Shown in pieces: positions 5,072 to 47,965 of a DNA stretch of 64,000 nucleotides. Below the pieces are notes generated by a model. That model was not told the DNA's origin. It worked only from the letters and a program-made list of their open reading frames with translations, and searched no databases. Position 1 is the stretch's first letter. Each line of letters starts with the position of its first letter. The stretch comes from Candidatus Sulfopaludibacter sp. SbA3 (GTDB lineage Bacteria; Acidobacteriota; Terriglobia; Bryobacterales; Bryobacteraceae). The translations under genes and the position numbers were made by a program. The DNA is taken from assembly GCA_945890485.1 (NCBI GenBank), contig CAMDCN010000002.1, positions 310,001 through 374,000 of the forward strand, read 5' to 3'.

Positions 5072-5419
5072 TTACAGCGTCGCTAAGGGACCGTGGTCGT
5101 CGCAGTGGCCGCTGTGCGGATGGTGGAGATGGCCCGCGACCAGGTAGTCGACGTGGTCGCCGTGCGGAACTGCTTCGTGGCCGCAGCCAGCACCGTGGAC
5201 ATGACCGCTGTCGTGGGCGCCGCAATCGTGCTGCGGGGTGCAGACGGCGGGATTGGCCGGGGACAGACCGATGGTGTGCTCATCAACATGACCATCGTGC
5301 AGATGGTGCAGATGACCGTCGTGCAGATAGTCGACGTGATCGTCGTGTTGGACGGCGGTATGACCGCAGCCCGCTTCATGATGATGCGTATGTTCCGGGT
5401 GGGTATTGCAGGATGACAT
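5072..5419 (-). CDS. histidine-rich metal-binding protein
   Basis: This 115-residue protein is extremely rich in His, with Cys and Asp. Two internal copies of one unit are visible: GCGHTAVQHDDHVDY...HLHHLHDGH (about residues 18-45) and GCGHEAVPHGDHVDY...HLHHPHSGH (about 77-104). No signal peptide or membrane segment is evident, so it is probably a cytoplasmic metal store or chaperone. The ATG at 5419 follows AGGAG within the end of the upstream arsR-type gene, indicating coupling. Between a zinc-type ArsR repressor and a Fur-family regulator, zinc (or a similar divalent metal) buffering is the simplest role. Related His-rich proteins of unproven function exist in other bacteria. Confidence 0.75.
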   Translation of the reverse strand: MSSCNTHPEHTHHHEAGCGHTAVQHDDHVDYLHDGHLHHLHDGHVDEHTIGLSPANPAVCTPQHDCGAHDSGHVHGAGCGHEAVPHGDHVDYLVAGHLHHPHSGHCDDHGPLATL

Positions 5420-5932: not shown

Positions 5933-6955
5933 ATGAAACGCGCTCTCATCACCGGTGTAACTGGACAGGACGGTTCTTACCTCGCGGAGTTTCTGCTCCG
6001 CAAGGGCTACGAGGTACACGGCATCAAGCGCCGCTCGAGCAGCTTCAATACCGGGCGGGTCGACAGCATCTACACCGATCTGCATGAGCACGGTAATCGC
6101 TTTTTTCTTCACTTTGGCGACCTCTCGGATACGAGTAGCCTGTGGAAGCTACTGCATGACGTGAAGCCCGATGAGGTGTACAACCTCGCGGCGCAGAGCC
6201 ACGTCCGGGTGAGCTTTGACATTCCGGAGAGCACCGGCGACATTACGGGCATGGGCGCCGCGCGCCTGCTCGAAGGCATCAAGCAGGTTGGCTTAGGCAG
6301 CACCTGCCGGTTCTACCAGGCTTCGTCGAGCGAAATGTTCGGCGCGGCGGATCCGCCGCAGCACGAAGGCACCGTTTTCCATCCCCGTAGCCCGTACGCC
6401 TGCGCCAAGCTGTTCGCGCACTGGCTCACGATCAACTACCGGGAAAGCTACAACATGTTCGCGGTGAGCGGCATTCTGTTCAATCACGAATCCCCCCGCC
6501 GCGGCGAGACGTTCGTGACGCGGAAGATCGCCCGCGCGGTCGCCCACATCAAGAACGGTCTCCAGGACAAGGTATACCTCGGTAACCTCGATTCGAAGCG
6601 CGACTGGGGCTTTGCCAAGGAATACGTCGAAGCCATGTGGCTGATGCTGCAGCAGGAGACCCCGGACGACTACGTAATCGGCACCGGCGAGACCCATACC
6701 GTTCGCGAGTTTGTCGAAGAAGCTTTCGGCCATGTGAATCTGGAATGGGAGAAGTACGTCGAGTTCGACCCGCGCTACCTACGCCCCGCCGAAGTGGACG
6801 CCTTGTTGGCCGACCCCTCGAAGGCTCGCCAAAAGATGGGTTGGGAGCACCAGACCGGCTTTAAAGAACTCGTAAAACTGATGGTGGATGCCGAAATGGA
6901 CGCGATTGCCGCGCGGCAGGCCGGGGTGACCCCGACCAACAGCCTGCACGGTTAA
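5933..6955 (+). CDS. gmd: GDP-mannose 4,6-dehydratase
   Basis: This enzyme converts GDP-mannose to GDP-4-keto-6-deoxymannose, the first step to GDP-L-fucose or GDP-rhamnose. It is a 340-residue extended short-chain dehydrogenase starting at the ATG at 5933. The frame stays open upstream to 5486, but that part is antisense to arsR and non-homologous. Visible signatures are the NADP site [12 protein letters not shown], the active-site SSSEMFG with Ser and Glu, YACAK supplying Tyr and Lys, and [15 protein letters not shown]. It is followed 18 bp later by fcl, so the product is GDP-L-fucose. It starts the five-gene glycan cluster. A second, more divergent paralogue lies at 25989. Confidence 0.95.
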
Positions 6956-7927
<972 letters not shown>

Positions 7928-7954: not shown

Positions 7955-10900
7955 ATGAAGCGGATTCGCTTATTCCAGATCAGTAACGGGGTGGGCTCGG
8001 GCAATATCGGCGATGAGCTGATGGCGCAGGAGTTCTGGAAGTTGTTGCCCGGTAACGTGATTCTGGATGTGCCCACTCTACCGGAGGCTGTTCGCTTCCG
8101 TGGCAAGTACCCGAACCCGCATCGTTATTTTCCGGCCGGGTCCCGCTTGACGGATCTTCCCCAAACGCCAGGTATTCTCGTAGGCGATACCCCGGTGGCG
8201 GAGTTTGAGGGCCTTGGATACCCGCTGCAAACGGTGGGTCCGGCGATTAGTGCGATTTCGCGGCGCGGCCTTCCTGTTGACGCGATATCGGTCGGCGTCG
8301 ATCGCCTGCATACGCCGGAAGCCCGCCAACTCTTTGCCCAGCACTATGCCGCGATTCGATCGTGGACCGTTCGTTCGGAGGCCTGTCGCGAGGCCCTGCT
8401 CGACCTGGGCGTTGCACCGGAACGAATCCGTGTGGCGGCTGATCTGGCCTGGCTATTTACGCCCGGGACGGAGACAGACGCTTGGGCGGCGGAGGTGTGG
8501 CGCGGTTTGGGAATCCAACCGGAGCGGCCGCTGCTGATCGTGAACGCCGTACACCATGTCGACCCCTCGGATACGGCTCCGAAGCGGGTGCTGGCCGAAG
8601 CGTTGGACCGCTTGGCGCGGGAATCCAGCTATCAGATAGCGTTTCTTCACAACGAAAGCAGGCCGGGGCCGGATTTCGACGCCGCCGCCGCGTCCGACGT
8701 TCGGGCCTTCATGCGGGAAACCTCCGTTGTGGTGCCCCTTGCCTACTACACGCCACAGGAGATGGTGAGTCTTCTGCGGCCCGCGGCTACAGTGCTCTCG
8801 CAGCGGTACCACATGGCCATTCAGGCCATACTGGCGGGGACGATCCCTGTCTGCCTGATGCGGGGCCAGAAGCTGAGTGGTCTGGCGCGCGAATTTGGGC
8901 TGCTGACCGCGCCGATTGAGGCCGATGCGATTGTGGAACGCGTGATGGAGTCAGCCGCGCGCCGTTCAGACAGGATTGCGGCACTGGCAGAGAAGCGGGA
9001 GGAGCACCGCGTCCGGGCGGGAGAGGCGCTGAGCTTCTTCCGGGAGTACATGGCGCAGGGAGCCCCGGTCCCGCGCCTCCCAGCCGCCGTCCTGCAGGTA
9101 GTGGTGATCCACCTCGGCGGGCTGGGCGATCTGGTCCTGGCCTCGTCTCTGCTTTCGGCGCTTCGCCGGAAGTATGGCGAGGCGTCGATCCGGCTGCTCT
9201 GCCGGGCTCCGTTCGCACAATTGCCTAGCCTGTTTCCCAGCCCGCCGGACCAAGTTACACCGGTCCGCCTGAATCCGAATGTCCACTCGCGGCCGAGCCT
9301 GATGGTCGCCGAAGCGCTCCGGGAATTGGAAGAACAGTTGGGCAAGCTTCGACCGGATCTGGTGCTGAGCGCTGAACTCGAACCCACTTGGCTTTCCTGG
9401 TACCTGACCAGCCGCTGGCAGGCACCCGTGAACGTGGCGTGCACTCGCCTGGAAGCTCCTCAGGGATTACTCCCCGTTCTGCTGCAAGAAGCCGGGCTGC
9501 AGTTGGTGGACTTCGACGGTCCAACCTGGCACGCGGATATGATCGAGGGCGACCGTTACGCCCAACTGGCCAAGGCGGTGGGGATCGACGACTGCCCGGC
9601 GCCCCGGTGGACGATCAACGCGGAGCAGGATCGGCAGACCTCTGCTTTCCTGGAGGCGAGCGGCATCAGCGGCGCATTTGCCGTCTGCTTTCCACTCGGC
9701 GCGGCGTCCACGCTCGTCAAACGCTGGCCGGTCGAGTCTTTCGCCTCAGCGCTGGAACAGGCGACCGAAGGCTTCGCCACTCCGGTGATCTTGACCGGGG
9801 AGGCGCATGAGCTGGCGGCGCTGGAATCCCATGCGGCTTACCTGCGCGGCCGGGGAGCCACGATCGCGGTATTCGCTGGCACGGCAGACGAGATTCTGTT
9901 GCTGGCGGGACTGTTGGCGCGGGCGAAGTTCTTCCTTGGGAACGACACGGGTCCGGCCCACATCGCCCAGGCCTACGGAACGCCGGGCGCCGTGGTTTTC
10001 GGCGGCGGGACTTGGCCACATTACCGTCCCTGGGGACCTGGCGCCGTGGGTGTCGTGCATCCGTTGCCCTGTTTTGGTTGCCGCTGGGACTGCATTTTCG
10101 GGCAGCCCGTCTGCATCGAAGGGGTGACCGTCGAATCCGTCGTTCGGGCAATCCAACAGGCAACGACGAATCCGACTGGTCCCGCGGAGGTGATCGCCCT
10201 CGCTTCGACCATAGCCGAGTCGGTCGTCAAGCTGGCAACCGTGTGGCGAACGGCCGCGGAAGAGCGACTGGTGAAGCTGGAGGAGCTCTCACGGACGCAT
10301 GAAGTAGTCGCTACGGCGGCGGCCAACCGAGCCCAAGCGCTGGACGAGCTGGACCGTCTGTTCCAGGGAGTGGAGACGAGCCGGGAAAGCGTACAGGCGG
10401 CAGCCAATCATCGACTGGAGTTGATCGAAGTCATCTCGAAAGAGCTATCCGACTTGAGGAGCGAGAACTCCGCCCGCTTGGAGACGATTGAAAGCGCCGA
10501 TAACCTGCTGCATCGGCAAGAAGACGAAATCAGAGAGCTCCGCGAAGGCTATGCTGCGCGCTTGGTCGCCATCGAAGAGGCCAACGCGCTGCTCCAGAAG
10601 CAGCAACTGGAGATCGCCGAGCTGCGCGAGGGACACGCCGCTCGCCTCGTCGCCATCGAGGAGGCCAACGATTTCCTCCGGAAGCAGCAGCGGGAGATCG
10701 AGGAGCTGCGCGAGGGCTACGCCGCTCGCCTCGCGGCGATCGAAGAGGCCAACGAGCTGCTTCGGAGACAGCAGCGGGAGATTGCTGAGCTGCGCGAGGG
10801 CTACGCCGCACGCCTCGTGGCCATCGAAGAGGCCAATGAGCTACTCCAGAAGCAGCAGCGGGAGATTGCTGAGCTGCGCGATGGCCACGCCGCACGCCTC

Positions 10901-11617
10901 GTGGCCATCGAAGAGGCCAATGCGCTGCTACAGAAGCAGCAGCGGGAGATTGCTGAGCTGCGCGAGGGCCATGCCGCGCGCCTCGTGGCCATCGAGGAGG
11001 CCAATGTCCTGCTCCGAAGCCAACAGGAAGATCTCACGCGCCTCCGGGCGGAAACCGCCTCCCTCAAGGCCGAAGATGCCCGGCAGAATGCGCGAATTCA
11101 GGAGTTGGACGTCGCCGCCACGGAACGGCTAGCTGCGCTCGAACACGCCAATCTGCTCCTCGCCGCCGCGAACGCGGCCAACGGGGAGCAGGGCAACCGG
11201 CTGCGCATGTTTGAACAAGCTGCGACCGAACGATTGGCTGCTCTGGAGGCCACGACCGTCACCCTACGGGCAGAGACGGCCCGTCGCACCCAGTTGGCGG
11301 CCGACCTGGAAACCGTCGCCGCAGCGCAAGCGGAGGCCCGACGCAGGCAGGCCGACGAGCGGGAAAGCTGGCAGAAGGTACTGGCGGAGCTACGCGCTGA
11401 ACTCAGTCGGGAGCGCACAGCCCGACTCGCCGGTCACGAAGAACTGATCCTCTTGCGGGCCGATCTCGAGCGAGTCGCGGCAGAACGGGACCGTTATCGC
11501 CGTTCCACCGAGGAGTTGGCGCTTAGTGAGCAGGACTTAAGAGGGCAAATCCTTGCGGCTGAGTCGGGGACTTTGCTACAGTCAGTTTTCCGAAGTAAAA
11601 CAGGAAAGAGCCATTGA
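7955..11617 (+). CDS. polysaccharide pyruvyltransferase / GT9 glycosyltransferase / long coiled-coil fusion
   Basis: This is a 1220-residue three-part protein. Residues 1-345 look like a polysaccharide pyruvyltransferase (PF04230): NIGDELMAQEF near the start, and SQRYHMAIQAILAGTIPV at the C-terminal end of the domain. Residues about 380-737 are a GT9 (ADP-heptose:LPS heptosyltransferase type) domain: VIHLGGLGDLVLASSLL, then FLGNDTGPAHIAQAYGTP. Residues about 750-1205 form a long coiled coil containing six exact-length 28-residue repeats (858-1025) of the type EIAELREGHAARLVAIEEAN. No signal peptide or membrane segment is seen, so it is probably cytoplasmic or peripheral. The role is inferred: adding pyruvyl and sugar groups to a surface glycan, with the coiled coil as scaffold or length ruler. 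Confidence 0.85.
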   Translation: MKRIRLFQISNGVGSGNIGDELMAQEFWKLLPGNVILDVPTLPEAVRFRGKYPNPHRYFPAGSRLTDLPQTPGILVGDTPVAEFEGLGYPLQTVGPAISAISRRGLPVDAISVGVDRLHTPEARQLFAQHYAAIRSWTVRSEACREALLDLGVAPERIRVAADLAWLFTPGTETDAWAAEVWRGLGIQPERPLLIVNAVHHVDPSDTAPKRVLAEALDRLARESSYQIAFLHNESRPGPDFDAAAASDVRAFMRETSVVVPLAYYTPQEMVSLLRPAATVLSQRYHMAIQAILAGTIPVCLMRGQKLSGLAREFGLLTAPIEADAIVERVMESAARRSDRIAALAEKREEHRVRAGEALSFFREYMAQGAPVPRLPAAVLQVVVIHLGGLGDLVLASSLLSALRRKYGEASIRLLCRAPFAQLPSLFPSPPDQVTPVRLNPNVHSRPSLMVAEALRELEEQLGKLRPDLVLSAELEPTWLSWYLTSRWQAPVNVACTRLEAPQGLLPVLLQEAGLQLVDFDGPTWHADMIEGDRYAQLAKAVGIDDCPAPRWTINAEQDRQTSAFLEASGISGAFAVCFPLGAASTLVKRWPVESFASALEQATEGFATPVILTGEAHELAALESHAAYLRGRGATIAVFAGTADEILLLAGLLARAKFFLGNDTGPAHIAQAYGTPGAVVFGGGTWPHYRPWGPGAVGVVHPLPCFGCRWDCIFGQPVCIEGVTVESVVRAIQQATTNPTGPAEVIALASTIAESVVKLATVWRTAAEERLVKLEELSRTHEVVATAAANRAQALDELDRLFQGVETSRESVQAAANHRLELIEVISKELSDLRSENSARLETIESADNLLHRQEDEIRELREGYAARLVAIEEANALLQKQQLEIAELREGHAARLVAIEEANDFLRKQQREIEELREGYAARLAAIEEANELLRRQQREIAELREGYAARLVAIEEANELLQKQQREIAELRDGHAARLVAIEEANALLQKQQREIAELREGHAARLVAIEEANVLLRSQQEDLTRLRAETASLKAEDARQNARIQELDVAATERLAALEHANLLLAAANAANGEQGNRLRMFEQAATERLAALEATTVTLRAETARRTQLAADLETVAAAQAEARRRQADERESWQKVLAELRAELSRERTARLAGHEELILLRADLERVAAERDRYRRSTEELALSEQDLRGQILAAESGTLLQSVFRSKTGKSH
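10526..11029 (+). repeat. six 84-bp in-frame tandem repeats encoding coiled coil
   Basis: Six consecutive 84-bp units (504 bp) encode 28-residue repeats, four heptads each, inside the 1220-aa fusion gene. Units share EI-ELR-G-AARL-AIEEAN-LL--QQ-. The middle units are more alike at the DNA level than the outer ones, which suggests expansion by unequal recombination. Copy number may vary between strains. Confidence 0.9.
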
Positions 11618-11636: not shown

Positions 11637-13961
11637 ATGAAAATAGACGTCAATCTGCGCCAGTATTACAAGGGCAAGATTGGCGGTATGGAAAACTACC
11701 TGCGCAATGTAATTCGCGGGTTGTCCCATCACCAGTTAAAAATTTGGGTCCACAAAGAAGAGGTGGAACACGTTCGCGAATTCGCGCCCACTGCTGAAAT
11801 CATTGGGATTACCCACGAAGGCGGCCTGCGAACGATTGAAGACGCGGTGCGCGCCGGCGGTTTCGACCTCTATTTCTGCCCGTTATTAGTGCTGGAGCCG
11901 CTCGTCGTTTCCCAGCCGAGCGCCGTGATGATGCCGGACGTGCAGCACGAGTTTTTTCCGGAATTTTTTGATGCTGGCGTGCTGCAATGGCGGCGGCAGA
12001 CGTATGGCCCAACCGCTCTGAATTGCGACGTCCTGTTTACGCTCAGCGAGCACGCCAAGTCAACAATTGTTGAAAAGTTCCGCGTGAATCCCGATAAAAT
12101 TCGGGTTATCCACCTCGACGCGGACGCGGAATTCAAGCGTGCGTTGCCCGCAGTTCCCACGCCCGGGTTCAAGGCGCTCCGCCTGCCGGAACGCTACCTT
12201 TACTTCCCGGCCAATTTTTGGCCGCACAAGAACCACTCGAATGTTCTGCAGGCGCTGCGAAAAGTGGTCGATTCGGGCGCTCGCGACATTCAACTGGTTC
12301 TGAGCGGATCGCCGGCGGAGTTTGGGCGCGTGGAGAAAGAGATCGCCAGCCTCGGCCTGCGCGATTCCGTACGGATGCTGGGTTACGTCGACAAGGCGCT
12401 GATTCCAGAGATCTACCAGCATGCGTTGGCGCTGCTGTTCGCCACCAAGTTTGAAGGGTTCGGGATACCGCTCCTCGAAGCGTTTTACTGCGGGTGCCCT
12501 GCGATTACCGCCAACTCCGGCAGTTGTGTCGAGGTGGCCGGCGATGCCGCTGTGCTCGTCGACCCGCTCAACCCGGCCAGCATTGCCGAAGGGGTGCTCC
12601 GTCTGGCGGGCGACGCAACGTTGCGCCAAGAGTTGGTGGAGAAGGGCAAAGAGCGCGTCAAGCAGTTCTCCTGGGAGCAGGCGGTAGCCCGGACAGAGCA
12701 GGCGTTTGGCGACATTACGAGTCCGTCCTACCGCAAACCGTCGTCGATTCAAGTGGAGTCCTGGCCGGTCATCGGTGTTGTCACGCCGACGTACAACATG
12801 GCGCACTTCCTCGAGGAGACGATTGAAAGTGTGCTCTCGCAGGACTATCCGCACGTCGACTATGTCGTGATGGATGCGGGGTCGAAAGATGGCTCGGTGG
12901 AGATTCTTCAGAAGTACGGCGACCGCTTTCGTTGGGTTTCGGAGAAAGACCGGGGCCAAGCGGATGCCGTCAACAAGGGGTATCACGCCACGAAGGGTGA
13001 GATCTTCACGTTCCTCAACTCGGACGATACCTATCTGCCTGGTGCTCTCAGCACGATCGCCAAGCATTTCAAGGCGAACCCGGGCGTGGGGATGATCTAC
13101 GGCGAGGCGTATCACGTAAAGCTCGACGGCGAGATTATCGCGCCGTATCCGACGCAGCCGTTCGACCTGCGCACGCTGAACAACCAGTGCTACATCTGCC
13201 AGCCGGCGGCGTTTATGCTGCGCGAGGCGTTCTATAACGCAGGTATGATGAACGTCGATATGCACTTCGCGCTCGATTATGAGCTGTGGATCCGCATCGC
13301 CAAACAGTACGGGGTTCGCAAAGTCGACGAGTTCCTGGCGACGAGCCGGATGCATATGGACAACAAAACCTTGTCCAAGCGCCGACTGGTGTATCAGGAG
13401 ATCCTGAGCACGGTGAAGACGCAGTTTCGATATGCGCCGTATGAGTGGATCAACGGCTACGCCTGCTATCTGCTCGACCGGAAGGATCAATACTTCGACC
13501 GGTCGAAACCGACGATGACGTCCTACGCGCTGAGTTTGGCGCTGGGGATGTATCACAATCCCGGGCAGCGAAAGCGCTTCCTGGCCGAATGGCAGGAGAT
13601 GACCGGATTCGGCCGGAAGTTTACTGGCCGCTGGGAAGATGGCTGGATTTCGGGAGTTTGGCAGTCCGAACAGTCGATTCCACAAGATGCATCCCGCCTG
13701 GCGATGGCCGGGAAGCACTGGGCGCCCGGCGGTCCGTTGGTTCTGACTGTGAAGCTCAATGGCAAGGCAATCCATCGGCAGCAGTTAGCGGCGGGGGAGT
13801 ATTCTCTGACTGCCCCCGTGCCCAATGAGTACCGGGGTACGACCTGCAAAATGGAAGTGGAAACCAACCGGACCTGGCGGCCGAAGGAAAACGGCGACTA
13901 TCGGCAATTGGGCTGTGTTGTGGATACGGTTCAGTTTGAATCTACGAGAACCTCGAAGTGA
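11637..13961 (+). CDS. GT4-GT2 bifunctional glycosyltransferase
   Basis: This 774-residue protein starts at the ATG at 11637 (MKIDVNLRQYYKG), 19 bp after the fusion gene. Residues 1-370 are a GT4/GT-B domain with YLYFPANFWPHKNH and the C-terminal EGFGIPLLEAFYCGCPAI motif with the conserved Glu pair. Residues about 378-600 are a GT2/GT-A domain with VVTPTYNMAHFLEETIESVL, the metal-binding region FLNSDDTYLPGA and CQPAAF. A last domain (about 665-770, WISGVWQSEQ through NGKAIHRQ) is a small beta-rich module also seen at the end of the next gene. It probably adds two successive sugars to a surface glycan; the substrates are unknown. Confidence 0.88.
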   Translation: MKIDVNLRQYYKGKIGGMENYLRNVIRGLSHHQLKIWVHKEEVEHVREFAPTAEIIGITHEGGLRTIEDAVRAGGFDLYFCPLLVLEPLVVSQPSAVMMPDVQHEFFPEFFDAGVLQWRRQTYGPTALNCDVLFTLSEHAKSTIVEKFRVNPDKIRVIHLDADAEFKRALPAVPTPGFKALRLPERYLYFPANFWPHKNHSNVLQALRKVVDSGARDIQLVLSGSPAEFGRVEKEIASLGLRDSVRMLGYVDKALIPEIYQHALALLFATKFEGFGIPLLEAFYCGCPAITANSGSCVEVAGDAAVLVDPLNPASIAEGVLRLAGDATLRQELVEKGKERVKQFSWEQAVARTEQAFGDITSPSYRKPSSIQVESWPVIGVVTPTYNMAHFLEETIESVLSQDYPHVDYVVMDAGSKDGSVEILQKYGDRFRWVSEKDRGQADAVNKGYHATKGEIFTFLNSDDTYLPGALSTIAKHFKANPGVGMIYGEAYHVKLDGEIIAPYPTQPFDLRTLNNQCYICQPAAFMLREAFYNAGMMNVDMHFALDYELWIRIAKQYGVRKVDEFLATSRMHMDNKTLSKRRLVYQEILSTVKTQFRYAPYEWINGYACYLLDRKDQYFDRSKPTMTSYALSLALGMYHNPGQRKRFLAEWQEMTGFGRKFTGRWEDGWISGVWQSEQSIPQDASRLAMAGKHWAPGGPLVLTVKLNGKAIHRQQLAAGEYSLTAPVPNEYRGTTCKMEVETNRTWRPKENGDYRQLGCVVDTVQFESTRTSK

Positions 13962-15127
13962 GCGAACCCCTCGTAACCATCGTTACCCCGTCCTACAACC
14001 AAGGACATTTTATTCGGGCGACGATTGAAAGCGTCCTGAGCCAGAGCTATCCGAACGTCGAGTACATCATTATGGACGGCGGCTCCACCGATAGTACGGC
14101 GGCCGTCGCAGCCGAGTACAGCAGCCGTTTGACCTTTATTTCGGAGAAGGACCGTGGGCAGACCCACGCCATCAACAAAGGGTTTCAGCGGGCCAGGGGG
14201 AGTATTGTCGCCTGGCTGAATTCCGACGACGTCTACCTGCCTGGCGCAATTGGGCACGGGGTGGCTGGATGCGAGGCGAATCCCGAGGTCGGCGCGATTT
14301 ACGGAGAGGGTTTCCAGATTGACTATGACGGGAATGTACGGCAGCAGTTTCCTTTCACCGAACCGTTCAATCTCTGGAAACTGACGTTTGTTCTCGACTA
14401 CATCCTGCAGCAGTCGGTGTTCTTCCGGCGCGATTGCGTGGAGGCCGTCGGGTGGGCGGATGAGTCGCTGCACTTTGGCATGGATTGGGATCTGTTGATC
14501 CGCTTGGGCAAACGATTCGGGTTGGCGTATGTGCCGGAGAAGTTTGGCTGCATCCGGGAATACGAAGCGGCCAAGTCCTTCGCCGGGGGGCAGAAGCGGT
14601 TCCGCGAACTGGCCGCGATGTTGCAGAAGCACAGCGGGCAGAAACGTCCGCCGGGCTGGTGGTTTTACGGGCTGGATACGTACGACAAGGTCTGGTCGGA
14701 GCGGATTCGGAAGGTCGTTCCGGGGGCTTTGGGCGACTATGTCGCGAAGCGTTTTGTCCACGTCTGCCGGGCACAGATCGACGCCGTCTATTTCCGGGCG
14801 CAAGGGTTATACGCCGACCAGTGGGCGGCAACCCGACTGCACTGGATGCTGCCCGAGTATGCCCGCACCGCCGTGATCCATGGGACAATTCCTGGGTGGG
14901 CGCGTCCGCTCGATGATCAGGAGTTCCGCATTCGCGTGAATGGCCAGATGGTCGCCCGCGAGAACCCGACGTTTGGCGACTTCGCCATTCCGGTGCCGCT
15001 TACGCCGGGGCGCGCTTCGGTGCTGCGGATCGATGCCGAGAAGTACGTTGTACCCGAGGAGCAGGGCCTGGGGCCGGACCGTCGGCGTCTCGCTTGGCAA
15101 TTGCGGCGCATCGAAGCGGTGCGATAG
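13958..15127 (+). CDS. GT2 family glycosyltransferase with C-terminal beta module
   Basis: This 389-residue protein starts at a GTG that overlaps the previous stop codon by 4 bp (GTGA), so it is translationally coupled. The GT-A fold signature is clear: VTIVTPSYNQGHFIRATIES, the DGGST loop and WLNSDDVYLPGA with the metal-binding Asp pair. Residues about 290-389 form an accessory module (WAATRLHWMLP, IRVNGQMVA, DRRRLAWQLRRIE) resembling the end of the preceding GT4-GT2 protein. It is the last gene of the five-gene glycan cluster. Donor and acceptor cannot be read from sequence. Confidence 0.88.
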   Translation: MSEPLVTIVTPSYNQGHFIRATIESVLSQSYPNVEYIIMDGGSTDSTAAVAAEYSSRLTFISEKDRGQTHAINKGFQRARGSIVAWLNSDDVYLPGAIGHGVAGCEANPEVGAIYGEGFQIDYDGNVRQQFPFTEPFNLWKLTFVLDYILQQSVFFRRDCVEAVGWADESLHFGMDWDLLIRLGKRFGLAYVPEKFGCIREYEAAKSFAGGQKRFRELAAMLQKHSGQKRPPGWWFYGLDTYDKVWSERIRKVVPGALGDYVAKRFVHVCRAQIDAVYFRAQGLYADQWAATRLHWMLPEYARTAVIHGTIPGWARPLDDQEFRIRVNGQMVARENPTFGDFAIPVPLTPGRASVLRIDAEKYVVPEEQGLGPDRRRLAWQLRRIEAVR

Positions 15128-15130: not shown

Positions 15131-16813
15131 TCACTTCACGTTGAGTGTGGGTCCGGGCGGACTGGTCACCCCGCGAATGCGAATCGCTACGGGCACGGCC
15201 TTTCCCGGGGTTACCGTGGGAGGAATGCGGATGTTCAACTGGATGATGCCAACGATCAGGCCGGGACTCGCGCCAGCGTAGTGAACCTCCGCTGGGAGCC
15301 CGCCGACGGTGACCGTCACAGGACTGTGGGGACTGCTCGCTTTGCTGGCGATCTCGCCATCGAGACGCCCCGCATCGGCTGGCGGCGCAGGCATCCCCTC
15401 GCCGGTGGCATAGAGAATGGCGAACCCACCTCGCAAAGCAGGAGCCGCCTCGGTGACCAAATAGTACTCCTTCTTCTCTTCGTCGTAAGCGTAGGAGGCC
15501 ACGGGACCGGCCCCTGCGCCACTTGCTGTGAACAAGCCGGGCGCGGCCGGGGTGACCAGGATCGGCCAAAGGTTGGACCGTTGGCCCAAATGATTCACCT
15601 GGATCATGTACGGGCGGTTTACCTCCAAGCCATAGGGAATCGCAATGCAGATCTGGTCCTTCCAGGCGTAGAGGATGGGCGCGCCCTCCCCTTGCAGCTC
15701 GACGGAAACATTGGCCAGGCTTGCCGGGACGCGGGGCAGCGCCGGGTCGAAAGCGACTAGAGTCTCCGGTCCAAGATTCTGGCCAAAGATGACCAGTAGG
15801 GAGCCAGGGGCGGCCGTGGCGGTGAGGTTTGCGGCGTGGCCGATTCCGCGAATTGCGGGCCCTGGTAGCGTCGTGACGAAACTCCCGGTCGCCTCGCCGC
15901 CTCCCGCGCCGGGATTCGTCACGGTGATCGGCAGGGACTTCGAATCCATCATCATGCTGGCGGGCACCGTGACTTGGAGTGCGTTGTCCCCGAGCACGAC
16001 GGTCAAGACCTGCTGATTGTTCACTCGAGCGATGGTCCCGGGAAAGAACCGGGCGCCGCGGACGGTCAAGATACTCGTTGGCGACTGCGCGGGCAGACTG
16101 GCCGGCCAAACGGTGCTGATTTCCGGGATCCCCGGCTGAACGGTGAGGCGGGCGGTGACGGTGGTCGTCTTCGTCACGGCGGTAGGCGTGTTGATTGTGA
16201 GCGTGCCGGAGTAGACTCCCGGACTCAATCCGGCCGGGTTCGCCGCGACCTGGATGGGGACCCGAAAGCCCGGAAATATGCTCCCGGTGGAGGGCGTAGC
16301 GGAGAGCCAAGCGGTTCCCTTCGTCGCGACGCTGAACGGAAGCAGGCCACCGGTGGAGCTCAGCAGTACCGGCAACGGGGGCACGGCGAGGTTGTCTCCG
16401 AGCCGCGAGACGAAATCGAGCGTCGTGGGCGAGACCATGATGTTGCTGGGCGGCGATTGCACCGTCAGCGTAACCGGAATCGATACAGGCTCCCGGTTGG
16501 CGCCCTCGGTCGGCACGATCGTCAGTTGGTCGGTGTAGGTACCAAGGATCATCGACGTGACATTCACTGTCACCCGGACCGCTAGCGTCGTCCGGCCGCT
16601 TTCGGGCGTGACCGTCAGCCAAGGACTTGAAGACGGATTGACGGCGAAGCCGAGCACTTGACCGTTCGCTACCGCCGCGACGGACAGCGTCTGCGAGGCG
16701 GTAGGAGTACCAACTCCCTGCACAAAGCTGAACGAAAGGGCGGTCGGCGACACCTTGACCGCGGGTGCGCCCCAGAGCATCGAAGCGAGCCAGAAGATAG
16801 AAAACCAACGCAC
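15131..16813 (-). CDS. secreted BACON/IPT protein with TIGR03437-type C-terminal domain
   Basis: This exported protein of about 560 residues starts at the GTG at 16813, after GGAGAGACA, and has a hydrophobic signal (RWFSIFWLASMLWG). Two BACON-like beta-sandwich repeats follow (VSPTALSFSF...WLTVTP and VSPTTLDFVS...WLSATP), then an IPT/TIG-like region (about 225-310). The C-terminal 240 residues (AANLTATAAPGSLLVIFGQNLG through PPTVTPGKAVPVAIRI) match the TIGR03437 domain known mainly from Solibacter-type Acidobacteria. No catalytic residues are apparent, and the role is probably surface or extracellular binding. It converges on the GT2 gene with a 3-bp gap. Confidence 0.85.
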   Translation of the reverse strand: MRWFSIFWLASMLWGAPAVKVSPTALSFSFVQGVGTPTASQTLSVAAVANGQVLGFAVNPSSSPWLTVTPESGRTTLAVRVTVNVTSMILGTYTDQLTIVPTEGANREPVSIPVTLTVQSPPSNIMVSPTTLDFVSRLGDNLAVPPLPVLLSSTGGLLPFSVATKGTAWLSATPSTGSIFPGFRVPIQVAANPAGLSPGVYSGTLTINTPTAVTKTTTVTARLTVQPGIPEISTVWPASLPAQSPTSILTVRGARFFPGTIARVNNQQVLTVVLGDNALQVTVPASMMMDSKSLPITVTNPGAGGGEATGSFVTTLPGPAIRGIGHAANLTATAAPGSLLVIFGQNLGPETLVAFDPALPRVPASLANVSVELQGEGAPILYAWKDQICIAIPYGLEVNRPYMIQVNHLGQRSNLWPILVTPAAPGLFTASGAGAGPVASYAYDEEKKEYYLVTEAAPALRGGFAILYATGEGMPAPPADAGRLDGEIASKASSPHSPVTVTVGGLPAEVHYAGASPGLIVGIIQLNIRIPPTVTPGKAVPVAIRIRGVTSPPGPTLNVK

Positions 16814-16854
16814 TGTCTCTCCATCGACGGCCTGCGCCGCCAACGGGAGATCAG

Positions 16855-17667
16855 TTAATTCTTAAGCTCTTCGGGGAAAACCGCATAGCCTTCCGGCGGC
16901 GGGAACTGCGCGCGGAAGTATTCGAGGCGCTTCCGCAGATGGCGGCTGGCGATCTGCCGCGGACCCGGCTCGACATCGATATCGCAGCAGAGACCGTGGA
17001 GATACAACGTCAGCGTGTCGAAGAAGGATTCGCGGGCATATTCGCGGAACAGCTTCGTCTCGCCCCGGAAAGAAGCCTGCTTGTTGAGCAGATTCTGTTT
17101 CGCGGCCCAGCTCAATTGGTCGACTTCGCCATGGACGCGCGCTTTCAGTTCCACACGGAGCATGTCCATGTAGCCACTGAACGCCGCCTCGGGCAACCGA
17201 TCGAATGCCGCCCGGGAGAACGCATTGAACAAATGGAAATGATACTCGCTCATGTCGATGTCTTTGACACCGAAAGCGAGGATGCCTGGCTGGCCTTCCG
17301 TGGCCGATGGAACGTAGGCGAGCGTCAAACGGACTTTTTCCTCAGGCGGGTCGATGACGACCAAGGAGTCCTGCGGCAGAAACGTCTGCCGTGCAGCCGC
17401 CTTGTGTTTGCCAAGGGCGGCGGGCCGTTCGAGATAGGGTACGAGCAGTACGAGGAGCTTCGGCAGTGCGGCGCGCACTAAAGCGGGGAGAGCTTCGACG
17501 GGCTCTTCCAGATATTCCCGCATGTCCTCTTCACCCACAGGCACGGCGGCGACGAAATACGAGAAAGTATCGCCCAGCGGAACGCTCTCCGAGCGGAATC
17601 GTTCGGCGAATTCACCCAAGTGAAGTTTGGCCGCAGACTCTAGGGCCAGGTCGGAGGAAGACGGCAT
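16855..17667 (-). CDS. conserved protein of unknown function
   Basis: I do not recognise this 270-residue protein. It has no signal peptide and no clear membrane helix, although residues 60-85 (LPALVRAALPKLLVLLVPYL) are hydrophobic. It is mixed charged/hydrophobic, with an SEYHFHLFNAFSRAAF segment and paired Cys (LCCDID) near the end. Codon use and a plausible ATG at 17667 support a real gene. It diverges from lpxB, with 45 bp between the starts. It could be cytoplasmic and envelope-related by position only. Confidence 0.65.
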   Translation of the reverse strand: MPSSSDLALESAAKLHLGEFAERFRSESVPLGDTFSYFVAAVPVGEEDMREYLEEPVEALPALVRAALPKLLVLLVPYLERPAALGKHKAAARQTFLPQDSLVVIDPPEEKVRLTLAYVPSATEGQPGILAFGVKDIDMSEYHFHLFNAFSRAAFDRLPEAAFSGYMDMLRVELKARVHGEVDQLSWAAKQNLLNKQASFRGETKLFREYARESFFDTLTLYLHGLCCDIDVEPGPRQIASRHLRKRLEYFRAQFPPPEGYAVFPEELKN

Positions 17668-41172: not shown

Positions 41173-43500
41173 CTACAGGATACTGCGCTTTTCCCGGATT
41201 GCCTCGCGATAACTGTCGGCGAGCTTGCGCGTGATGGTGGCCATGTCCCAGTGCTCGACCACCTCCGTGCGGGCGCGCTCCGCGAGGGCGGCGGCATGCG
41301 CGGGATCTGCCAGCAGCGCCAACGTTTTTTCGGCGAAGCCGGCGGGTGAGTCGGCCAGGGCGCAGGTATCGCCGTCGCGTTCGGCCAAGCCTTCGGCGCC
41401 GACCGTAGTCGAAACCACCGGGATGCCGGCGGCATAGGCTTCGAGCAGCTTCACGCGGACGCCGGAGCCGGTGAGAATTGGACAGATGAAGACCGCATAG
41501 CGGGCCAGCGCATCGCGGACGTCGTCAACGAAGCCGATGAGTTCAATGTCGCCGACGTTGGGCAGCGAATGCCGCGGTGGCGGGTCGCTGCCGATGATCA
41601 CGAGTTTTACGCCGGGGCGACCGCCCACGACCAGGGGCCACACGTGCTGCAGAAACCAGGTGAGCGCCTCCCGATTGGGGATATGACGAAACGAACCCAA
41701 GAAGAGCAGGGTGTCCGGCTCGCGATCGGCGACTTGATATCGATACCGGGTCGTATCGATGCCCGCGCGGAGGCCGGACTGCATCTTGAGGCGCAATTCA
41801 GGCGCGAATTCGGCGAGGTAGGATTCGTTGGCGCGGCTGCACATCTGGATGCGGTCCATGTGCGGCAGCATGGTCAGTTCATAACGGAGCGCGCGCAGAT
41901 ACTCGTATGCGGGCGAAATTTTTCCAAGCGGATTGCCGGGCTTGGCCAAGCTGCGGCCAATGGACTGGAAGTAGACGTCGTGCTCGAACAGAATATTGAC
42001 GATCTGCCGGAATTCCTCAGCATATTGGCCCATATTCGTATATTCGATCTGCAGGACATCGACGCGATGCAGCAGGATGGTGCGATGGATGGCCCAGCGG
42101 AGATCGTCGTTGGCGAACTCGCGGACGGCGTAGGGCGTGAGCGAGCCGAAGCCTTTGGGTCGGCCTTCCATGCGGACGAAGTACTCTGTACTCGCGCAGG
42201 ATTCGGCGAACGGCGCATGCGCTTCTCGCTGCCACTCCTCATCGAGCAGGACGATGAGATGCACCGGCACGTGCTTGACGAGTTCGGCCAGCGTCTGCGA
42301 CATGAACACGGCTCCGCCATGAATGGGCGGGAGGATCGGATAGGGCGAGAGGAATAGGGTGCGAGGCTGGGCGGGGTCCTTCTGCAGCTTTTCGAAGCGG
42401 TCGAGGAAGTAGCCGGGCATGGGCCGGCGGAAGGCTTCCGTGTCGGAAACGGCGGCGAGATGAAAGGCGCGGGCGCGAGCGCGGATCGCCTCCGGCAACT
42501 GCAGAAACGCGCGCCAAAGTGCCAGCGGGTTTGGCCGTTCGAAGGACTCGCCAAAGAGGACGCTGAGGATCGCGCCGGCCCACGAATAGGCCAAGTGGCC
42601 GGCCAGGCGGCGGCTTTCGTGGATGTTCTTCCAACAGAAGAGCAGAAAGTTTTTCTTGAGGATGGACTGGATGTACTCGTTCGAGAACTTCTTTCCGATG
42701 GTGCCGCGGTGTTCGTGGAAGACGCGGCTCGCCGGCTGATAGAGCACTTTCCAGCCACGCTTCCAGGCCATCATGCCGAGGTCCGTGTCCTCCAGGTAGA
42801 ACGGCTTCAGCAGCTCATCGAATCCGCCCAATTGCAGAAACTTGTTGCGGTCGAAAGCGCAGGAGCCGCCGCCGCCGTAGAAGCAGGGGAAGAGGCGGTC
42901 GACCCGCTCGTCGATGCGATGGCGAACGCGAAGGCCCCCGTTCTCCCACCAGGCCTGCGTCAGGCCGGTCTCTTCGCGAACTTTATCCGGGTCGCTGAAG
43001 AAGATCTGGCAGGATACAGCGAAGACCTTCTCGTCGGTGAAGCCAGCAAGCAGCGGGGCGAGAAAATCGGGCTCCACGCGCATGTCGCTATTGAGCAGCA
43101 CGACGATGTCGTTCTTCGCGGCGCGGAACCCGGCGTTGGAGCCGCCGCCGAAGCCGAGATTGGTTTTGTTCCGAATGACTCGAACGGAAGGGAAGCGCTC
43201 GGCGAGAAATTCGGCTGAGCCGTCCGTGCTGGCATCGTCAACCACGATGACTTCGTTGTTGGCGCCGGCTGCCAGCAGCACGCTGGGCAGATACTTTTCG
43301 AGCAGATCGCGCCCATTCCAGTTCGGGATGACGATGCTGGCGGAGGCTGTGTCGGGCTTAGCGTCCGGCGCTAGCGGTTTGCGGCCGCGAACTCGCAGCC
43401 AGATGTCCGTACAAGCCAAGGCAACCGCGGGGATGCCGACGAGGGCCGGGGAGACGGCCAGCAGAGGAAGATTGCGCCCGAAGCGCTGCCAGAAACCCAT
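41173..43500 (-). CDS. GT2-GT4 bifunctional glycosyltransferase
   Basis: This 775-residue protein begins with a hydrophobic segment (LLAVSPALVGIPAVALACTDIWL, residues about 12-34) that may anchor it in the membrane. Residues about 52-300 are a GT2 domain of the rhamnosyltransferase type: SIVIPNWNGRDLLEKYLPSV, VVDDASTDGS, LLNSDMRVEPDF and FYLEDTDLGMMAWKRG. Residues about 385-770 are GT-B/GT4, with SPYPILPPIHGG, FLGSFRHIPNREA, and GVRVKLLEAYAAGIPVVSTTVGAEG at the donor site. It probably adds two sugars to an O-chain. It starts 3 bp after the methyltransferase gene, so the genes are one unit. Confidence 0.87.
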   Translation of the reverse strand: MGFWQRFGRNLPLLAVSPALVGIPAVALACTDIWLRVRGRKPLAPDAKPDTASASIVIPNWNGRDLLEKYLPSVLLAAGANNEVIVVDDASTDGSAEFLAERFPSVRVIRNKTNLGFGGGSNAGFRAAKNDIVVLLNSDMRVEPDFLAPLLAGFTDEKVFAVSCQIFFSDPDKVREETGLTQAWWENGGLRVRHRIDERVDRLFPCFYGGGGSCAFDRNKFLQLGGFDELLKPFYLEDTDLGMMAWKRGWKVLYQPASRVFHEHRGTIGKKFSNEYIQSILKKNFLLFCWKNIHESRRLAGHLAYSWAGAILSVLFGESFERPNPLALWRAFLQLPEAIRARARAFHLAAVSDTEAFRRPMPGYFLDRFEKLQKDPAQPRTLFLSPYPILPPIHGGAVFMSQTLAELVKHVPVHLIVLLDEEWQREAHAPFAESCASTEYFVRMEGRPKGFGSLTPYAVREFANDDLRWAIHRTILLHRVDVLQIEYTNMGQYAEEFRQIVNILFEHDVYFQSIGRSLAKPGNPLGKISPAYEYLRALRYELTMLPHMDRIQMCSRANESYLAEFAPELRLKMQSGLRAGIDTTRYRYQVADREPDTLLFLGSFRHIPNREALTWFLQHVWPLVVGGRPGVKLVIIGSDPPPRHSLPNVGDIELIGFVDDVRDALARYAVFICPILTGSGVRVKLLEAYAAGIPVVSTTVGAEGLAERDGDTCALADSPAGFAEKTLALLADPAHAAALAERARTEVVEHWDMATITRKLADSYREAIREKRSIL

Positions 43501-43503
43501 CGC

Positions 43504-44748
43504 TTAGACGGTCGGCCCGACCCCCAGCCGCCGGCCCAGCCGGATCCACTTTGAAGCCCCGACAGCGGCGATTTGCTCGCGAAGCGCAGCGATTTCGCAG
43601 TCCAGGCCTTGAGCCCAAATCGTGCGTTCTTCGACTAGCGCTTCCGATTCGTGCAGCTTTTCGAGGCACCGCTGCAACTCGGCATGCGCGGATTCGACGG
43701 CCGCGCTCCATTCCTGATCTTTGCTCTCGGCCCAAGCGATGGCTTGGGCCTTCTCCGCTTCGAGCCGCTTCAACTCCGCCTCGTACGCGGCAACGACTTC
43801 CGCGGCGGCCGCTTGTTCCTTCTTGACCTCGTCCTGCAATTCGGCCACGCGCTGTTGCGAGGCCTGCAGGCTTTCGTTGGTCGTTTGGGCCCAGGTGTTC
43901 GAGGCCTTTAGTTCCCCAACGGTCTGGTCATGGACTTGGAGCAACGCCTGATGGGCCGACTGCTCCTTCTTCAGCCATTCGTCCTTCGTCACCAATTCCG
44001 CGGCGAGGCGTTGAATATGGCGTTCGCGCTCGCGGAGGACGTTGGCGGACGACGGCACGTACAGATACGCCGGCGCGCCGGTTTGGATCTCATTGGCGCA
44101 GACGGCGAGGAAAAAGTGCGATTCGGCGGCGACGCCTGTGCGGCCTTCGAGGCGGACTTCCGCGCCGCTGGCCCCGGATTCCGGCTGAAACACGATGCTT
44201 TCCGCATGGTTTTCGAGGAACATCGAGACGTGCGGGAAGACTTCGGCCAGGGCGGCCCGGAACTCTTCGATTTCAAACTCGTGCGTGTGGAAAGGGTTCG
44301 GGCCGGACTGCTCGCGGGATTCGGCGTAATAGAGCTTGTTCGGCGTCGAGACGACCAGTTGGCCGCCGGGGGCCAGGACTCGGCGGGCCTCCGTTAGGAG
44401 TTTCGACCATTCTTCCAGATGCTCGATGACCTCAAAGGCAACGACCAGGTCGAAGCTCGCATCGGGGAAGGGCAGTTCGGTGGCGGAGCCGGGTTCGTAG
44501 CGGAGATTATCCCGCACGTAATGCTCCCGCGCATAGGCGATCGCGTCCGCGCTGACATCGACGCCGGTGGCCTCGCGGGCGGTGAGCGCGAGTTCGTTGG
44601 TGCCGTAGCCGGCGCCGCAGCCGACGTCCAGCACGCGCTTCCGGCGCGCCAGCCGGGCGGCGAACGTATAGCGCGAGAAGTGCTCGTTCCACAGATCGAC
44701 GTCGACCAGCCCAGGGATGACCCGTTCGCCGGTGAACTCAGCGCTCAT
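43504..44748 (-). CDS. class I methyltransferase with C-terminal coiled coil (WbdD-like layout)
   Basis: This 414-residue protein has an N-terminal SAM methyltransferase domain (about 30-200): VLDVGCGAGYGTNEL (motif I), GVDVSADAIAYAREH, and FDLVVAFEVIEHLEEW. From about 230 to 400 the sequence is a continuous Glu/Lys/Ala-rich coiled coil with heptads (RERERHIQRLAAELVTKDEW onward). It ends in a short basic tail. In E. coli O8/O9 the methyltransferase WbdD caps the O-chain and its coiled coil sets chain length. The same order beside a Wzt-like ATPase suggests a similar role here. No kinase domain is visible. Its start overlaps the wzt stop region by 11 bp. Confidence 0.85.
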   Translation of the reverse strand: MSAEFTGERVIPGLVDVDLWNEHFSRYTFAARLARRKRVLDVGCGAGYGTNELALTAREATGVDVSADAIAYAREHYVRDNLRYEPGSATELPFPDASFDLVVAFEVIEHLEEWSKLLTEARRVLAPGGQLVVSTPNKLYYAESREQSGPNPFHTHEFEIEEFRAALAEVFPHVSMFLENHAESIVFQPESGASGAEVRLEGRTGVAAESHFFLAVCANEIQTGAPAYLYVPSSANVLRERERHIQRLAAELVTKDEWLKKEQSAHQALLQVHDQTVGELKASNTWAQTTNESLQASQQRVAELQDEVKKEQAAAAEVVAAYEAELKRLEAEKAQAIAWAESKDQEWSAAVESAHAELQRCLEKLHESEALVEERTIWAQGLDCEIAALREQIAAVGASKWIRLGRRLGVGPTV

Positions 44749-46042
44749 TGGGGACGGCCTCCTTGGCGCCGAGTCGCGAATTCACCTCGACTTTGCAGGG
44801 CATATGCAGGTAACCGTAGATTTCGCCCTCGCCGTGGCCCATCTGCAGGGTGAGGGCGTTGTCGATCCAATCACACATCTTGTAATGGGACAGATTGCCG
44901 TCCGCGATGGCGGGCGAGAAGGAGAACGACGCGGGATAGAGCTCCGGCAAGGTGAGATGGAAATCGACCGTCACCGTGTCGCCGGGCCAGAGTTCAGCCA
45001 ACTGATGGCCTTCGCGGAGAGTGTTGGTGCCGGCGAAATCGACTCCTAGGTGGTTGCGCATCATAAAGCCGATGTTGGGGTTCATCACCGCTTCCTTGGC
45101 CCGGGCACTGATCCGGATGACGACCGGCTTGCCGGGCTCCATCAGGTGGAGCTTGTTGCCGAGATCGTTGAGCACGGCGATGCCAACGATTTCGGCGCGG
45201 CCGTCACCGTAGCGATGGTCGATATTTGGAATAGATTCAATGACTTGCGGGGCGATGTTAGCGGCGGTGGGCTGTTCCTGCGCCCGGGGGCCGAGCTCGA
45301 GGAAGCGCGAATCCTTCTCCACCATGTAGGCCAGATATTGCGAAACCACGTTTTCGGTTTCGCCGATGGCCCGGATGGTTCCGTTGTCGAGCCACATGGT
45401 GCGGTCGCCGATGGCTTTCACGTCGCCGATGGCGTGCGACACGAACAGGATCGTGACACCCTTCTGCCGCAGCTCATGGACTTTGCGCATACAGCGCTGG
45501 CGGAAGTAGATGTCCCCGACGGCGAGGGCCTCGTCGACCAGGAGAATGTCGGGATCGACGTGGATGGCGACCGAAAACGCGAGGCGGACGGCCATGCCGC
45601 TCGAATACGTCTTCACGGGTTGGTTGATGAAGTCGCCGATTTCGGCAAAGGCCTCAATTTCCGCGTAGCGGGCGTCGATCTGGGCCGTGGTCAGCCCGAG
45701 AATTGCGGCGTTGAGGTAGACGTTCTCTTTCCCGGAAAATTCCGGGTTGAAGCCGGAGCCGAGCTCGAGAAGAGCCGAAACGCGCCCCTGCACCGCCGCG
45801 CTCCCGGAACAGGGCTGGAGAATTCCAGCGATGATCTGGAGCAAAGTCGATTTGCCCGAGCCGTTTTCGCCGATCACACAGAAGGTTTCGCCGCGCTTAA
45901 CGGTAAACGAGACATCCCGCAAGGCCCAGAAATCACGATGGAAGGAGACGCGATTAAACGTCGCCAACTCTTTCAATCGTTGGCCGGGCGATTCATAGAT
46001 GGGGTAGCTCTTCGAAACCCCTTGAAAATCAATCACGTTCAT
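44738..46042 (-). CDS. ABC transporter ATPase for O-polysaccharide export (Wzt-like)
   Basis: This 434-residue ATPase has an N-terminal nucleotide-binding domain: Walker A GENGSGKST, signature TYSSGMAVRLAFS, and Walker B ILLVDEALAVGD followed by a switch His (VSHAIGD). After about residue 270 comes a Wzt_C-type beta domain (about 280-425) with the family's PELYPASFSF-like and final basic segments. This domain recognises the modified chain end in known O-antigen exporters. The permease partner (Wzm) is not adjacent and was not found in the window. It is the first gene of the seven-gene minus-strand series. Confidence 0.9.
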   Translation of the reverse strand: MNVIDFQGVSKSYPIYESPGQRLKELATFNRVSFHRDFWALRDVSFTVKRGETFCVIGENGSGKSTLLQIIAGILQPCSGSAAVQGRVSALLELGSGFNPEFSGKENVYLNAAILGLTTAQIDARYAEIEAFAEIGDFINQPVKTYSSGMAVRLAFSVAIHVDPDILLVDEALAVGDIYFRQRCMRKVHELRQKGVTILFVSHAIGDVKAIGDRTMWLDNGTIRAIGETENVVSQYLAYMVEKDSRFLELGPRAQEQPTAANIAPQVIESIPNIDHRYGDGRAEIVGIAVLNDLGNKLHLMEPGKPVVIRISARAKEAVMNPNIGFMMRNHLGVDFAGTNTLREGHQLAELWPGDTVTVDFHLTLPELYPASFSFSPAIADGNLSHYKMCDWIDNALTLQMGHGEGEIYGYLHMPCKVEVNSRLGAKEAVPNER

Positions 46043-46208: not shown

Positions 46209-47123
46209 TCAGTCGAGGCTTTCTCCCGTGATCACGGCGTAAATCCGGTCCAGGTCATCCTGCGAGTGGTAGTCGATCTCGATTTTTCCTTTTCCCGGCG
46301 CCTTTTCCATAATCCGGACGCGTGTCCCCAATGAGGCCTCGAGCTCCGAGATGGCCGCCTTCACGTTGGGATCGATGGGCGGTGGTTCCTCGACCTTTTT
46401 GGCCTCCGGGGCCTTGGTCATCGTTTGAACCAACTGCTCCACTTGCCGTACCGAGAGCCCTTGCGCCGCGGCCTTCTCGGCGACTTCGCGTTGCAGCTCT
46501 TCGGTCGGCAAGCCGAGGATTGCCCGGGCGTGGCCCATCGACAGCCGCTTCTCCGCGAGAAGCAGTTGCACATCGCCCGGCAGCCGGAGCAGCCGGAGCA
46601 TATTCGTAATCGTGGTGCGATCCTTGCCCGTGCGTTTGCCGATCTCTTCGTGGCTTAGGCCCAGGTCGTTCGAAAGCTTCTCGAACGCGACAGCAACTTC
46701 AATGGGGTTGAGGTCCTCGCGCTGGATGTTTTCGATGAGGGCGACTTCCAGCAGCCGGTCGTCGTGAATGTCCGCAATGACGATGGGGACTTCTTTGAGC
46801 CCGGCCAAGCGGGAGGCGCGCCAGCGGCGTTCTCCGGCGATGAGGTGATACTTGTCGCCGACCTTGCGGACAATTAGCGGCTGGATGATGCCGTTGGCCT
46901 GGATCGACGCGGCCAGTTCCTGCAAACGCGCCGGATCGAACACCGTGCGCGGCTGATTGGGATTTGGCTCGATCTGATCGATTGGCAGCTTGTTGACGAC
47001 TGGCGGCTCCACCGGGGCCACGGGCGCCGGCGCCGTCACTTGGGCGGCGGCGCGGCTGGGCAGTAGAGACGAGAGTCCCTTACCCAGCGCTTTGCGTGAG
47101 CTGTTGTCTGGCGCGTTGGTCAT
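46209..47123 (-). CDS. parB: chromosome-partitioning protein ParB
   Basis: This is a 304-residue ParB/Spo0J. The N-terminal [11 protein letters not shown] motif contacts ParA. The CTPase/ParB core (about 45-135) includes NQPR and GERRWRAS, the conserved nucleotide-binding motif. A helix-turn-helix (about 155-200, [19 protein letters not shown]) binds parS. The C-terminal 40 residues form the dimer domain. It overlaps the end of parA by 44 bp. Two parS sites lie just upstream of parA, so ParB loads next to its own operon. It probably compacts and segregates the origin region together with ParA. Confidence 0.95.
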
Positions 47124-47877: not shown

Positions 47878-47919
47878 CAATGATTCTGGCTCCTGCAGAC
47901 ATCCTAGCATGCGTGGCAA

Positions 47920-47935
47920 TGTTCCACGTGAAACA
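47920..47935. other. parS: parS site 1
   Basis: TGTTCCACGTGAAACA is an exact match to the bacterial parS consensus TGTTnCACGTGAAACA. It lies between parA and mnmG, the position expected near the replication origin. ParB should bind here. Confidence 0.93.
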
Positions 47936-47962: not shown

Positions 47963-47965
47963 GCG

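Follow-up and report, generated by a model that had tools for sequence, protein, structure and literature searches.

A stretch of 64,000 nt from Candidatus Sulfopaludibacter sp. SbA3 (contig CAMDCN010000002.1, 310,001-374,000), here called the window and the basis of all positions given, contains a gene whose product joins a polysaccharide pyruvyltransferase-like (PYR) head, a glycosyltransferase family 9 (GT9) head and a long coiled-coil stalk carrying a tandem array (Table 1). This PYR-GT9-coil gene, or fusion, stands third in a row of five closely packed genes, and its product is classed here with enzyme-on-coiled-coil glycan assembly proteins. An earlier note on this DNA had proposed the open reading frame (ORF), its two domains and six 84-bp repeats of exact length, all of which held on analysis: the ORF encodes 1220 amino acids (aa), both Pfam domains score over their cut-offs and the repeats stand in register.

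Table 1. Features of the fusion gene, its neighbours and two further genes of the window.
Feature	Position	Strand	Basis or remark
PYR-GT9-coil gene, whole	7955..11617	+	ORF, ATG start, 1220 aa
PS_pyruv_trans (polysaccharide pyruvyltransferase-like) head, aa 1-372	7955..9070	+	Pfam PF04230
GT9 (heptosyltransferase-like) head, aa 373-770	9071..10264	+	Pfam PF01075, phmmer, Foldseek
Coiled-coil stalk, aa 771-1220	10265..11614	+	Heptad hydrophobic pattern, RhxxhE motifs
Six tandem 84-bp / 28-aa units, aa 861-1028	10535..11038	+	TRF, register check
Units 1-3	10535-10618, 10619-10702, 10703-10786	+	Register of 84-bp array
Units 4-6	10787-10870, 10871-10954, 10955-11038	+	Register of 84-bp array
C-terminal tail (LLQSVFR and basic residues)	11555..11614	+	Orthologs and stalk-only genes have related tails
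GDP-mannose 4,6-dehydratase (GMD)	5933..6955	+	Pfam; gmd equivalog over cut-off
GDP-L-fucose-synthase-like reductase (GFS)	6974..7927	+	305.9 bits, under equivalog cut-off of 500
Dual-module GT4-GT2 glycosyltransferase, candidate polymerase, 774 aa	11637..13961	+	Pfam
GT2 glycosyltransferase	13958..15127	+	Pfam
BACON-domain protein and 270-aa protein without Pfam match	15131-17667	-	Conserved beside operon and LpxB in congeners
Methyltransferase-coil gene beside Wzt	43507-44748		~160-aa coiled-coil-like tail, basic end
Wzt gene of carbohydrate-binding-module (CBM) type	44741-46042	-	33 kb from fusion gene, own partners

Both heads are recognised by family profiles. At aa 17-300 the protein matches PS_pyruv_trans (PF04230) with 38.3 bits against a cut-off of 25.3, and at aa 534-707 Glyco_transf_9 (PF01075) with 49 bits against a cut-off of 22. 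The GT9 half also matches 3tov, a solved GT9/heptosyltransferase structure, by sequence (phmmer, E 6.6e-6). An AlphaFold model of aa 1-790 (14 aligned sequences, mean pLDDT 82.7, pTM 0.53) matched 3tov, 1psw (heptosyltransferase II) and WaaC in Foldseek; as modelled, the GT9 head has the GT-B fold of the GT9 family. The PYR head shares 39-79% identity with 12 other sequences; N17, G19, D20, R284 and H286 are invariant. In the genomes G085 and G117 it scores 20.9 for PF04230, below the cut-off. Between the window gene and its closest ortholog, that of G013, the ratio of nonsynonymous to synonymous substitution rates (dN/dS) is 0.12 for PYR, 0.17 for GT9 and 0.18 for the C-terminal stalk flank (dS 1.1-1.3). 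The N-terminal stalk flank gives 0.08 at a saturated dS of 3.05, which makes these figures rough. By this measure both heads are strongly conserved and under purifying selection. Family profiles and residue conservation suggest PEP-dependent pyruvyl transfer and glycosyl transfer as the activities of the heads.

The array that follows the heads is described by TRF with a period of 84, 5.8 copies, 86% match, 0% indels and a score of 643, and its sequence occurs at a single place in its own genome (DNA search). At lag 28 the self-match of the tail reaches a best local value of 0.93, whereas the 95th percentile of shuffles is 0.45. The TRF result and this self-match, far above shuffles, exclude a chance or artefact repeat. 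The repeats were expected to sit within an already long coiled coil, and the array does lie inside a heptad-patterned tail. Over aa 771-1220 the fraction of LIVMF residues differs between the positions mod 7, from 0.00 at the lowest to 0.59 at the highest, and 0 of 1000 shuffles reached so wide a range. The motif RhxxhE occurs 11 times in aa 771-1093, inside and outside the array and always in one mod-7 frame; ten of the 11 copies fall within the shuffled 449-aa stretch, where 0.52 are expected. In the tail of G013, three of 15 RhxxhE spacings are not multiples of seven. A spectral peak near 3.5 residues was found in 13 of 14 tails (in G013 the peak lies at the edge of the scan, 4.0), with three of the 14 (G013, G001, G008) under the shuffle 95% level. 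AlphaFold, given a two-sequence alignment, placed long helices over most of the tail. Judged by its heptad pattern, aa 771-1220 is an extended coiled coil; it may be a trimer, the RhxxhE motifs being consistent with trimeric parallel assembly.

How widespread this architecture is was assessed in a family sample of 237 genomes, 21 of which had a match to the fusion at E <= 1e-30. PYR followed by GT9 in one frame is present in at least nine of the 237 (window, G001, G008, G010, G012, G013, G085, G116 and G117), a lower bound because loci were inspected in the 21 matching genomes and the best candidates alone were scored; in G012 the C-terminal part of the gene lies in another frame. Four genomes of a phylum sample of 396 matched at E <= 1e-25, and both halves stood in one frame in the row of the window alone. 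No description of the architecture was found among the titles and abstract openings covered, few of which were of subscription papers. The domain order had been called unusual, and it is indeed uncommon. The parts also occur in other combinations: PYR and GT9 are separate adjacent genes in G150, with the stalk on the GT9 gene, and GT9-coil genes without fused PYR occur in G104, G130, G148, G149, G150 and G215. In G130 a protein with PS_pyruv_trans and methyltransferase domains (L082 3913-6222) is encoded between GFS and the GT9-coil gene. A ~770-aa paralog in G008, G012, G010 and G004 (L042-L045) has the same two domains and precedes a related GT2 gene, but its domain order is the opposite, GT9-PYR, and it lacks a long stalk; three genomes (G008, G010, G012) have both this paralog and the long-stalk fusion.

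Between species, the array changes in length by whole units. The window gene has six units and that of G013 has 11, with tails of 450 and 590 aa; the difference is exactly 140 aa, or 5 x 28, and the flanks are colinear. The dominant unit is 28 aa in the window, G013, G001 and G008, 49 aa in G010, G012, G085, G150, G104 and G130, and 21 aa in G117 and G215, and a unit of 35 aa occurs in genes encoding only a stalk in G014, G016 and, marginally, G017 (0.49 against 0.45 for shuffles). G116 is an exception, with a unit of 52 aa and 21 as second, and the tails of G149 and G148 have no repeat above shuffles. Array counts from fragmented metagenome-assembled genomes are uncertain, the contigs of G001 and G008 stopping within the array. 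More distant GT9-coil paralogs have repeat lengths of 81, 45 and 70 aa. At L052 and L053, other GT9 genes have long coil tails (repeats of 81/53, 45 and 70 aa) whose proteins end LLPRRL(V/I/M)(N/K)LL.

Third-codon identity of the units is higher within than between species for the window and G013 (0.67 against 0.50; 1 of 2000 label shuffles), the window and G001 (0.69 against 0.59; 9 of 2000) and G013 and G001 (0.70 against 0.54; 0 of 2000). This greater likeness within species implies that the arrays have been rebuilt since the species split. On these comparisons the arrays turn over while both heads stay conserved, and the stalk evolves by gain and loss of whole-heptad repeats, with exceptions such as the 52-aa unit of G116. 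The whole-heptad steps that the earlier note had proposed are thus seen between six and 11 units and in the 49-, 35- and 21-aa units of other lineages, and the architecture is neither common nor fixed in repeat number.

Gene order around the fusion was compared in a congener set of 19 genomes, one per species and including the window genome. As far as the retrieved stretches extend, it runs GMD, GFS, fusion, GT4-GT2, GT2, BACON protein, 270-aa protein and LpxB. Outside this order, G085 has GMD, GFS and fusion and then the contig end, and in G116 and G117 a GT2 gene comes after the fusion, with GMD, GFS and GT4-GT2 absent from the retrieved stretch. Within the window (11637-15127) the GT4-GT2 and GT2 proteins, compared by eye, seem to share a related C-terminal extension of ~100 aa. 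Whether joint loss of GFS and head points to the donor sugar was considered. In G009 and G011 both the head and GFS are affected, GFS being damaged or absent, but G008 combines a truncated GFS with an intact head, and the clue was therefore dropped. The neighbourhood bears on one alternative, in which GT9 and PYR would build or decorate the core of lipopolysaccharide (LPS) and the nearby LpxB would reflect a role in lipid A-core assembly. The structural relatives of the GT9 head are indeed LPS heptosyltransferases, and LpxB is near in the window, G001, G008, G009, G010, G011, G012 and G018, where the stretch reaches. However, LpxB is also near the broken copies of G009 and G011, it is separated from the operon by two opposite-strand genes in the window, and a stalk of 450-650 aa has no obvious use in core assembly, so we regard a core enzyme as very improbable.

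Proteins of comparable build are known from O-antigen synthesis, and are compared here as far as the available parts of their published descriptions go. Coiled-coil terminators hold a capping activity away from the membrane-proximal polymerase, and in E. coli O9a the length of the coil sets the length of the chain (PMC5082667, PMC3482155, PMC11231755). They work with multi-module polymerases, and in K. pneumoniae O4 a glycosyltransferase serves as terminator (PMC11231755). The fusion resembles WbdD, the O9a kinase-methyltransferase, in having glycan-modifying domains at the N-terminus, a long coiled coil and a short, possibly docking C-terminal region, and in its multi-module glycosyltransferase partner (PMC3482155, PMC5082667, PMC11231755). 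It differs in having PYR and GT9 heads instead of a kinase and a methyltransferase, in a much longer stalk with tandem arrays, in lacking an operon-linked ATP-binding cassette (ABC) transporter and in a head that is absent or broken in many relatives. ORF7 of K. pneumoniae O4 and WbbB of O12 likewise mount a glycosyltransferase on a coiled coil, but they add 3-deoxy-D-manno-oct-2-ulosonic acid (Kdo) and are not GT9 enzymes, and their descriptions, in the parts available, name no PYR head. WbbZ of K. pneumoniae O1 places a terminal pyruvate on the O antigen before export, as the PYR head might, but it adds an epitope without setting chain length, and no coiled coil appears in the available part of its description; pyruvate-based chain terminators in other bacteria are named there as unproven candidates (PMC10629545). 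By analogy, the window protein fits the published geometry, with N-terminal heads, a stalk, a shared tail and an adjoining dual-module glycosyltransferase.

That the protein is an enzyme which caps or modifies glycans from its stalk, in the manner of WbdD-type terminators, has in our view about an even chance. On this reading it would be a cytoplasmic glycan-assembly protein whose PYR-like and GT9 heads sit atop a long coiled coil that stays in register and probably forms a parallel bundle. The related C-terminal tail would dock at or near the GT4-GT2 and GT2 proteins of the operon at the membrane, and the heads would act on the growing end of a surface glycan, presumed to contain 6-deoxyhexose, by capping or decorating it. 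The stalk, which evolves in whole-heptad blocks, would then set the distance at which they act. The gene order, genus-wide and with the dual glycosyltransferase adjoining the fusion, supports this proposal. Its most speculative part, suggested by analogy, is that repeat number sets glycan chain length, which we put forward tentatively as something less than probable.

Several results weigh against a stalk-mounted capping enzyme. Although the PYR head shares a Pfam family with CsaB, it scores 48.9 bits on the CsaB NCBIfam equivalog (cut-off 213.1), and the GT9 head, which shares fold and family with WaaC/WaaF, scores 35-45 on the heptosyltransferase I/II/III equivalogs (cut-offs >=135). A profile search gave no solved relative of the PYR head at E <= 0.01 (best 0.084, an unrelated protein), and no pyruvyltransferase is named in the Foldseek top 50 for the head model. 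In the tail, the reversed control motif EhxxhR occurs in eight copies, seven in another frame and one in the same frame as RhxxhE. By hydropathy the heptad core is not significant in any of the six window units (P 0.25-0.65), and in six lineages two of six units, some of them representative composites, fell below 0.05; the heptad signal comes from the whole tail. Residues 205-267 of the two-sequence AlphaFold tail model are mostly non-helical, with low confidence. Amphipathicity of the C-terminal tail is not significant in the window protein (P = 0.59), nor does the amphipathic moment reach significance at 0.05 in any of the 12 tails compared, which are related and often basic. Among the five operon genes there is no transporter or flippase. 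Finally, the head is not constant at the site: a broken copy is found in two of 19 congeners (G009, G011), a stalk-only ORF precedes GT4-GT2 in six (G004, G007, G014, G015, G016, G017; the G016 contig ends upstream), and gaps of 167 bp (G003) and 49 bp (G005) hold no stalk ORF. The head is therefore dispensable.

Head and stalk are together in six of the 19 congeners (window, G001, G008, G010, G012, G013). In G018 the fusion is in pieces, its PYR part and stalk end lying on two contigs, with one stop in the stalk and GT9 not seen. The site was classified in 17 of the 19 congeners, all but G002 and G006. The stalk-only genes encode 103-282 aa (L115, L116, L117, L118, L121, L126), three of them with the 35-aa repeats noted above, and end in a tail related to that of the fusion, with NEGLLxSIIRR compared with ETLLQSVFR in the G013 fusion. 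A profile of five fusion tails scored five of the six above all 2000 heptad-shuffled decoys, the exception being G016, and a profile of the last 50 aa did so for three of six. A tail regular expression, fitted after the family had been seen, hit seven of 1895 ORFs, all of the family, and misses the window's own tail. Headless stalk genes with related tails at the same site make the stalk the more constant part and the enzymes optional. This is the setting for a second alternative, in which the chief role of stalk and tail is to organise or recruit GT4-GT2 and GT2 without measuring anything, certain lineages also carry the heads on the stalk, and unit number is almost free to drift provided that the heptad frame holds. 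The stalk-only genes speak for it, as do their weaker constraint (dN/dS 0.20-0.56, four pairs of five genes) and the six genomes whose GT9-coil genes lack a fused PYR. Yet the heads of the fusion are strongly conserved, and in fusion and GT9-coil proteins alike the enzymatic heads occupy the N-terminus, remote from the tail, in the geometry of published rulers; we see such a scaffold as possible, without thinking it probable.

A true terminator-ruler of the WbdD type would make a stronger claim, namely that a pyruvate and/or GT9-sugar cap stops polymerisation and is needed for ABC/Wzt export, with unit number fixing the modal length. Architecture and dual-glycosyltransferase neighbour are as in the available accounts of published systems, and length varies by whole units. 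The genome also has three Wzt_C genes, and such genes are present in 19 of 19 congeners, with or without the fusion, which makes co-occurrence of fusion and Wzt uninformative as a clue. Several observations count against such a ruler: the lack of a transporter among the five genes; a window Wzt (44741-46042) that has a methyltransferase-coil partner of its own and no adjoining PF01061 membrane component; a GT4-GT2 gene, mostly with GMD and GFS, that stands without a head in eight congeners; and tails of ~67-97 nm (calculated from the rise per residue), several times the ~20 nm given for WbdD in the available text. A site that is headless in eight congeners, two broken copies and the lack of an exporter among the five genes all speak against an obligatory terminator, and we hold a WbdD-type terminator-ruler to be distinctly unlikely. 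ABC-exporter linkage was looked for and not found, and length control is a proposal only, so the protein is not placed in the WbdD type. The WbdD analogy drawn in the earlier note thus survives in part: the ruler idea is reasonable in view of the published coiled-coil terminators, whereas the strict analogy is countered by six stalk-only congeners, two broken copies and a Wzt 33 kb away with its own partner.

That Wzt belongs to another group of genes. At 41173-46042 on the minus strand, Wzt, the methyltransferase-coil protein and a dual GT2-GT4 protein are encoded together, apparently as a second WbdD/O8-like set of more classical make-up. Beside it, 46209-49828 holds ParB, ParA and GidA genes, with a sign change of GC skew near 48 kb, and is probably the replication origin region. 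Elsewhere in the window, a short and very histidine-rich ORF (5072-5419, minus strand) lies between a Fur-family gene and a regulator-like ORF, and is either a metal-binding protein or an overlapping ORF.

The broadest interpretation of the fusion is a modular, evolvable glycan ruler, in which a stalk-and-dock gene would have its caps swapped (none, GT9 or PYR-GT9) and its length tuned by gaining and losing whole-heptad tandem units, so that surface-glycan length would diverge fast between sister species. We consider this rather unlikely as a whole; if true, each 28-aa unit would correspond to about 4 nm. Length control by coiled-coil rulers has been described, in the part of the source available, for a few enterobacterial O antigens (PMC11231755). 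The present family is a natural length series, with six, 11 and other unit numbers as well as headless stalks, in which the ruler idea and the parts played by heads and by stalk can be told apart. Should glycan size indeed be set by repeat number, gain and loss of units would give close relatives a simple route to divergence of their surface glycans.

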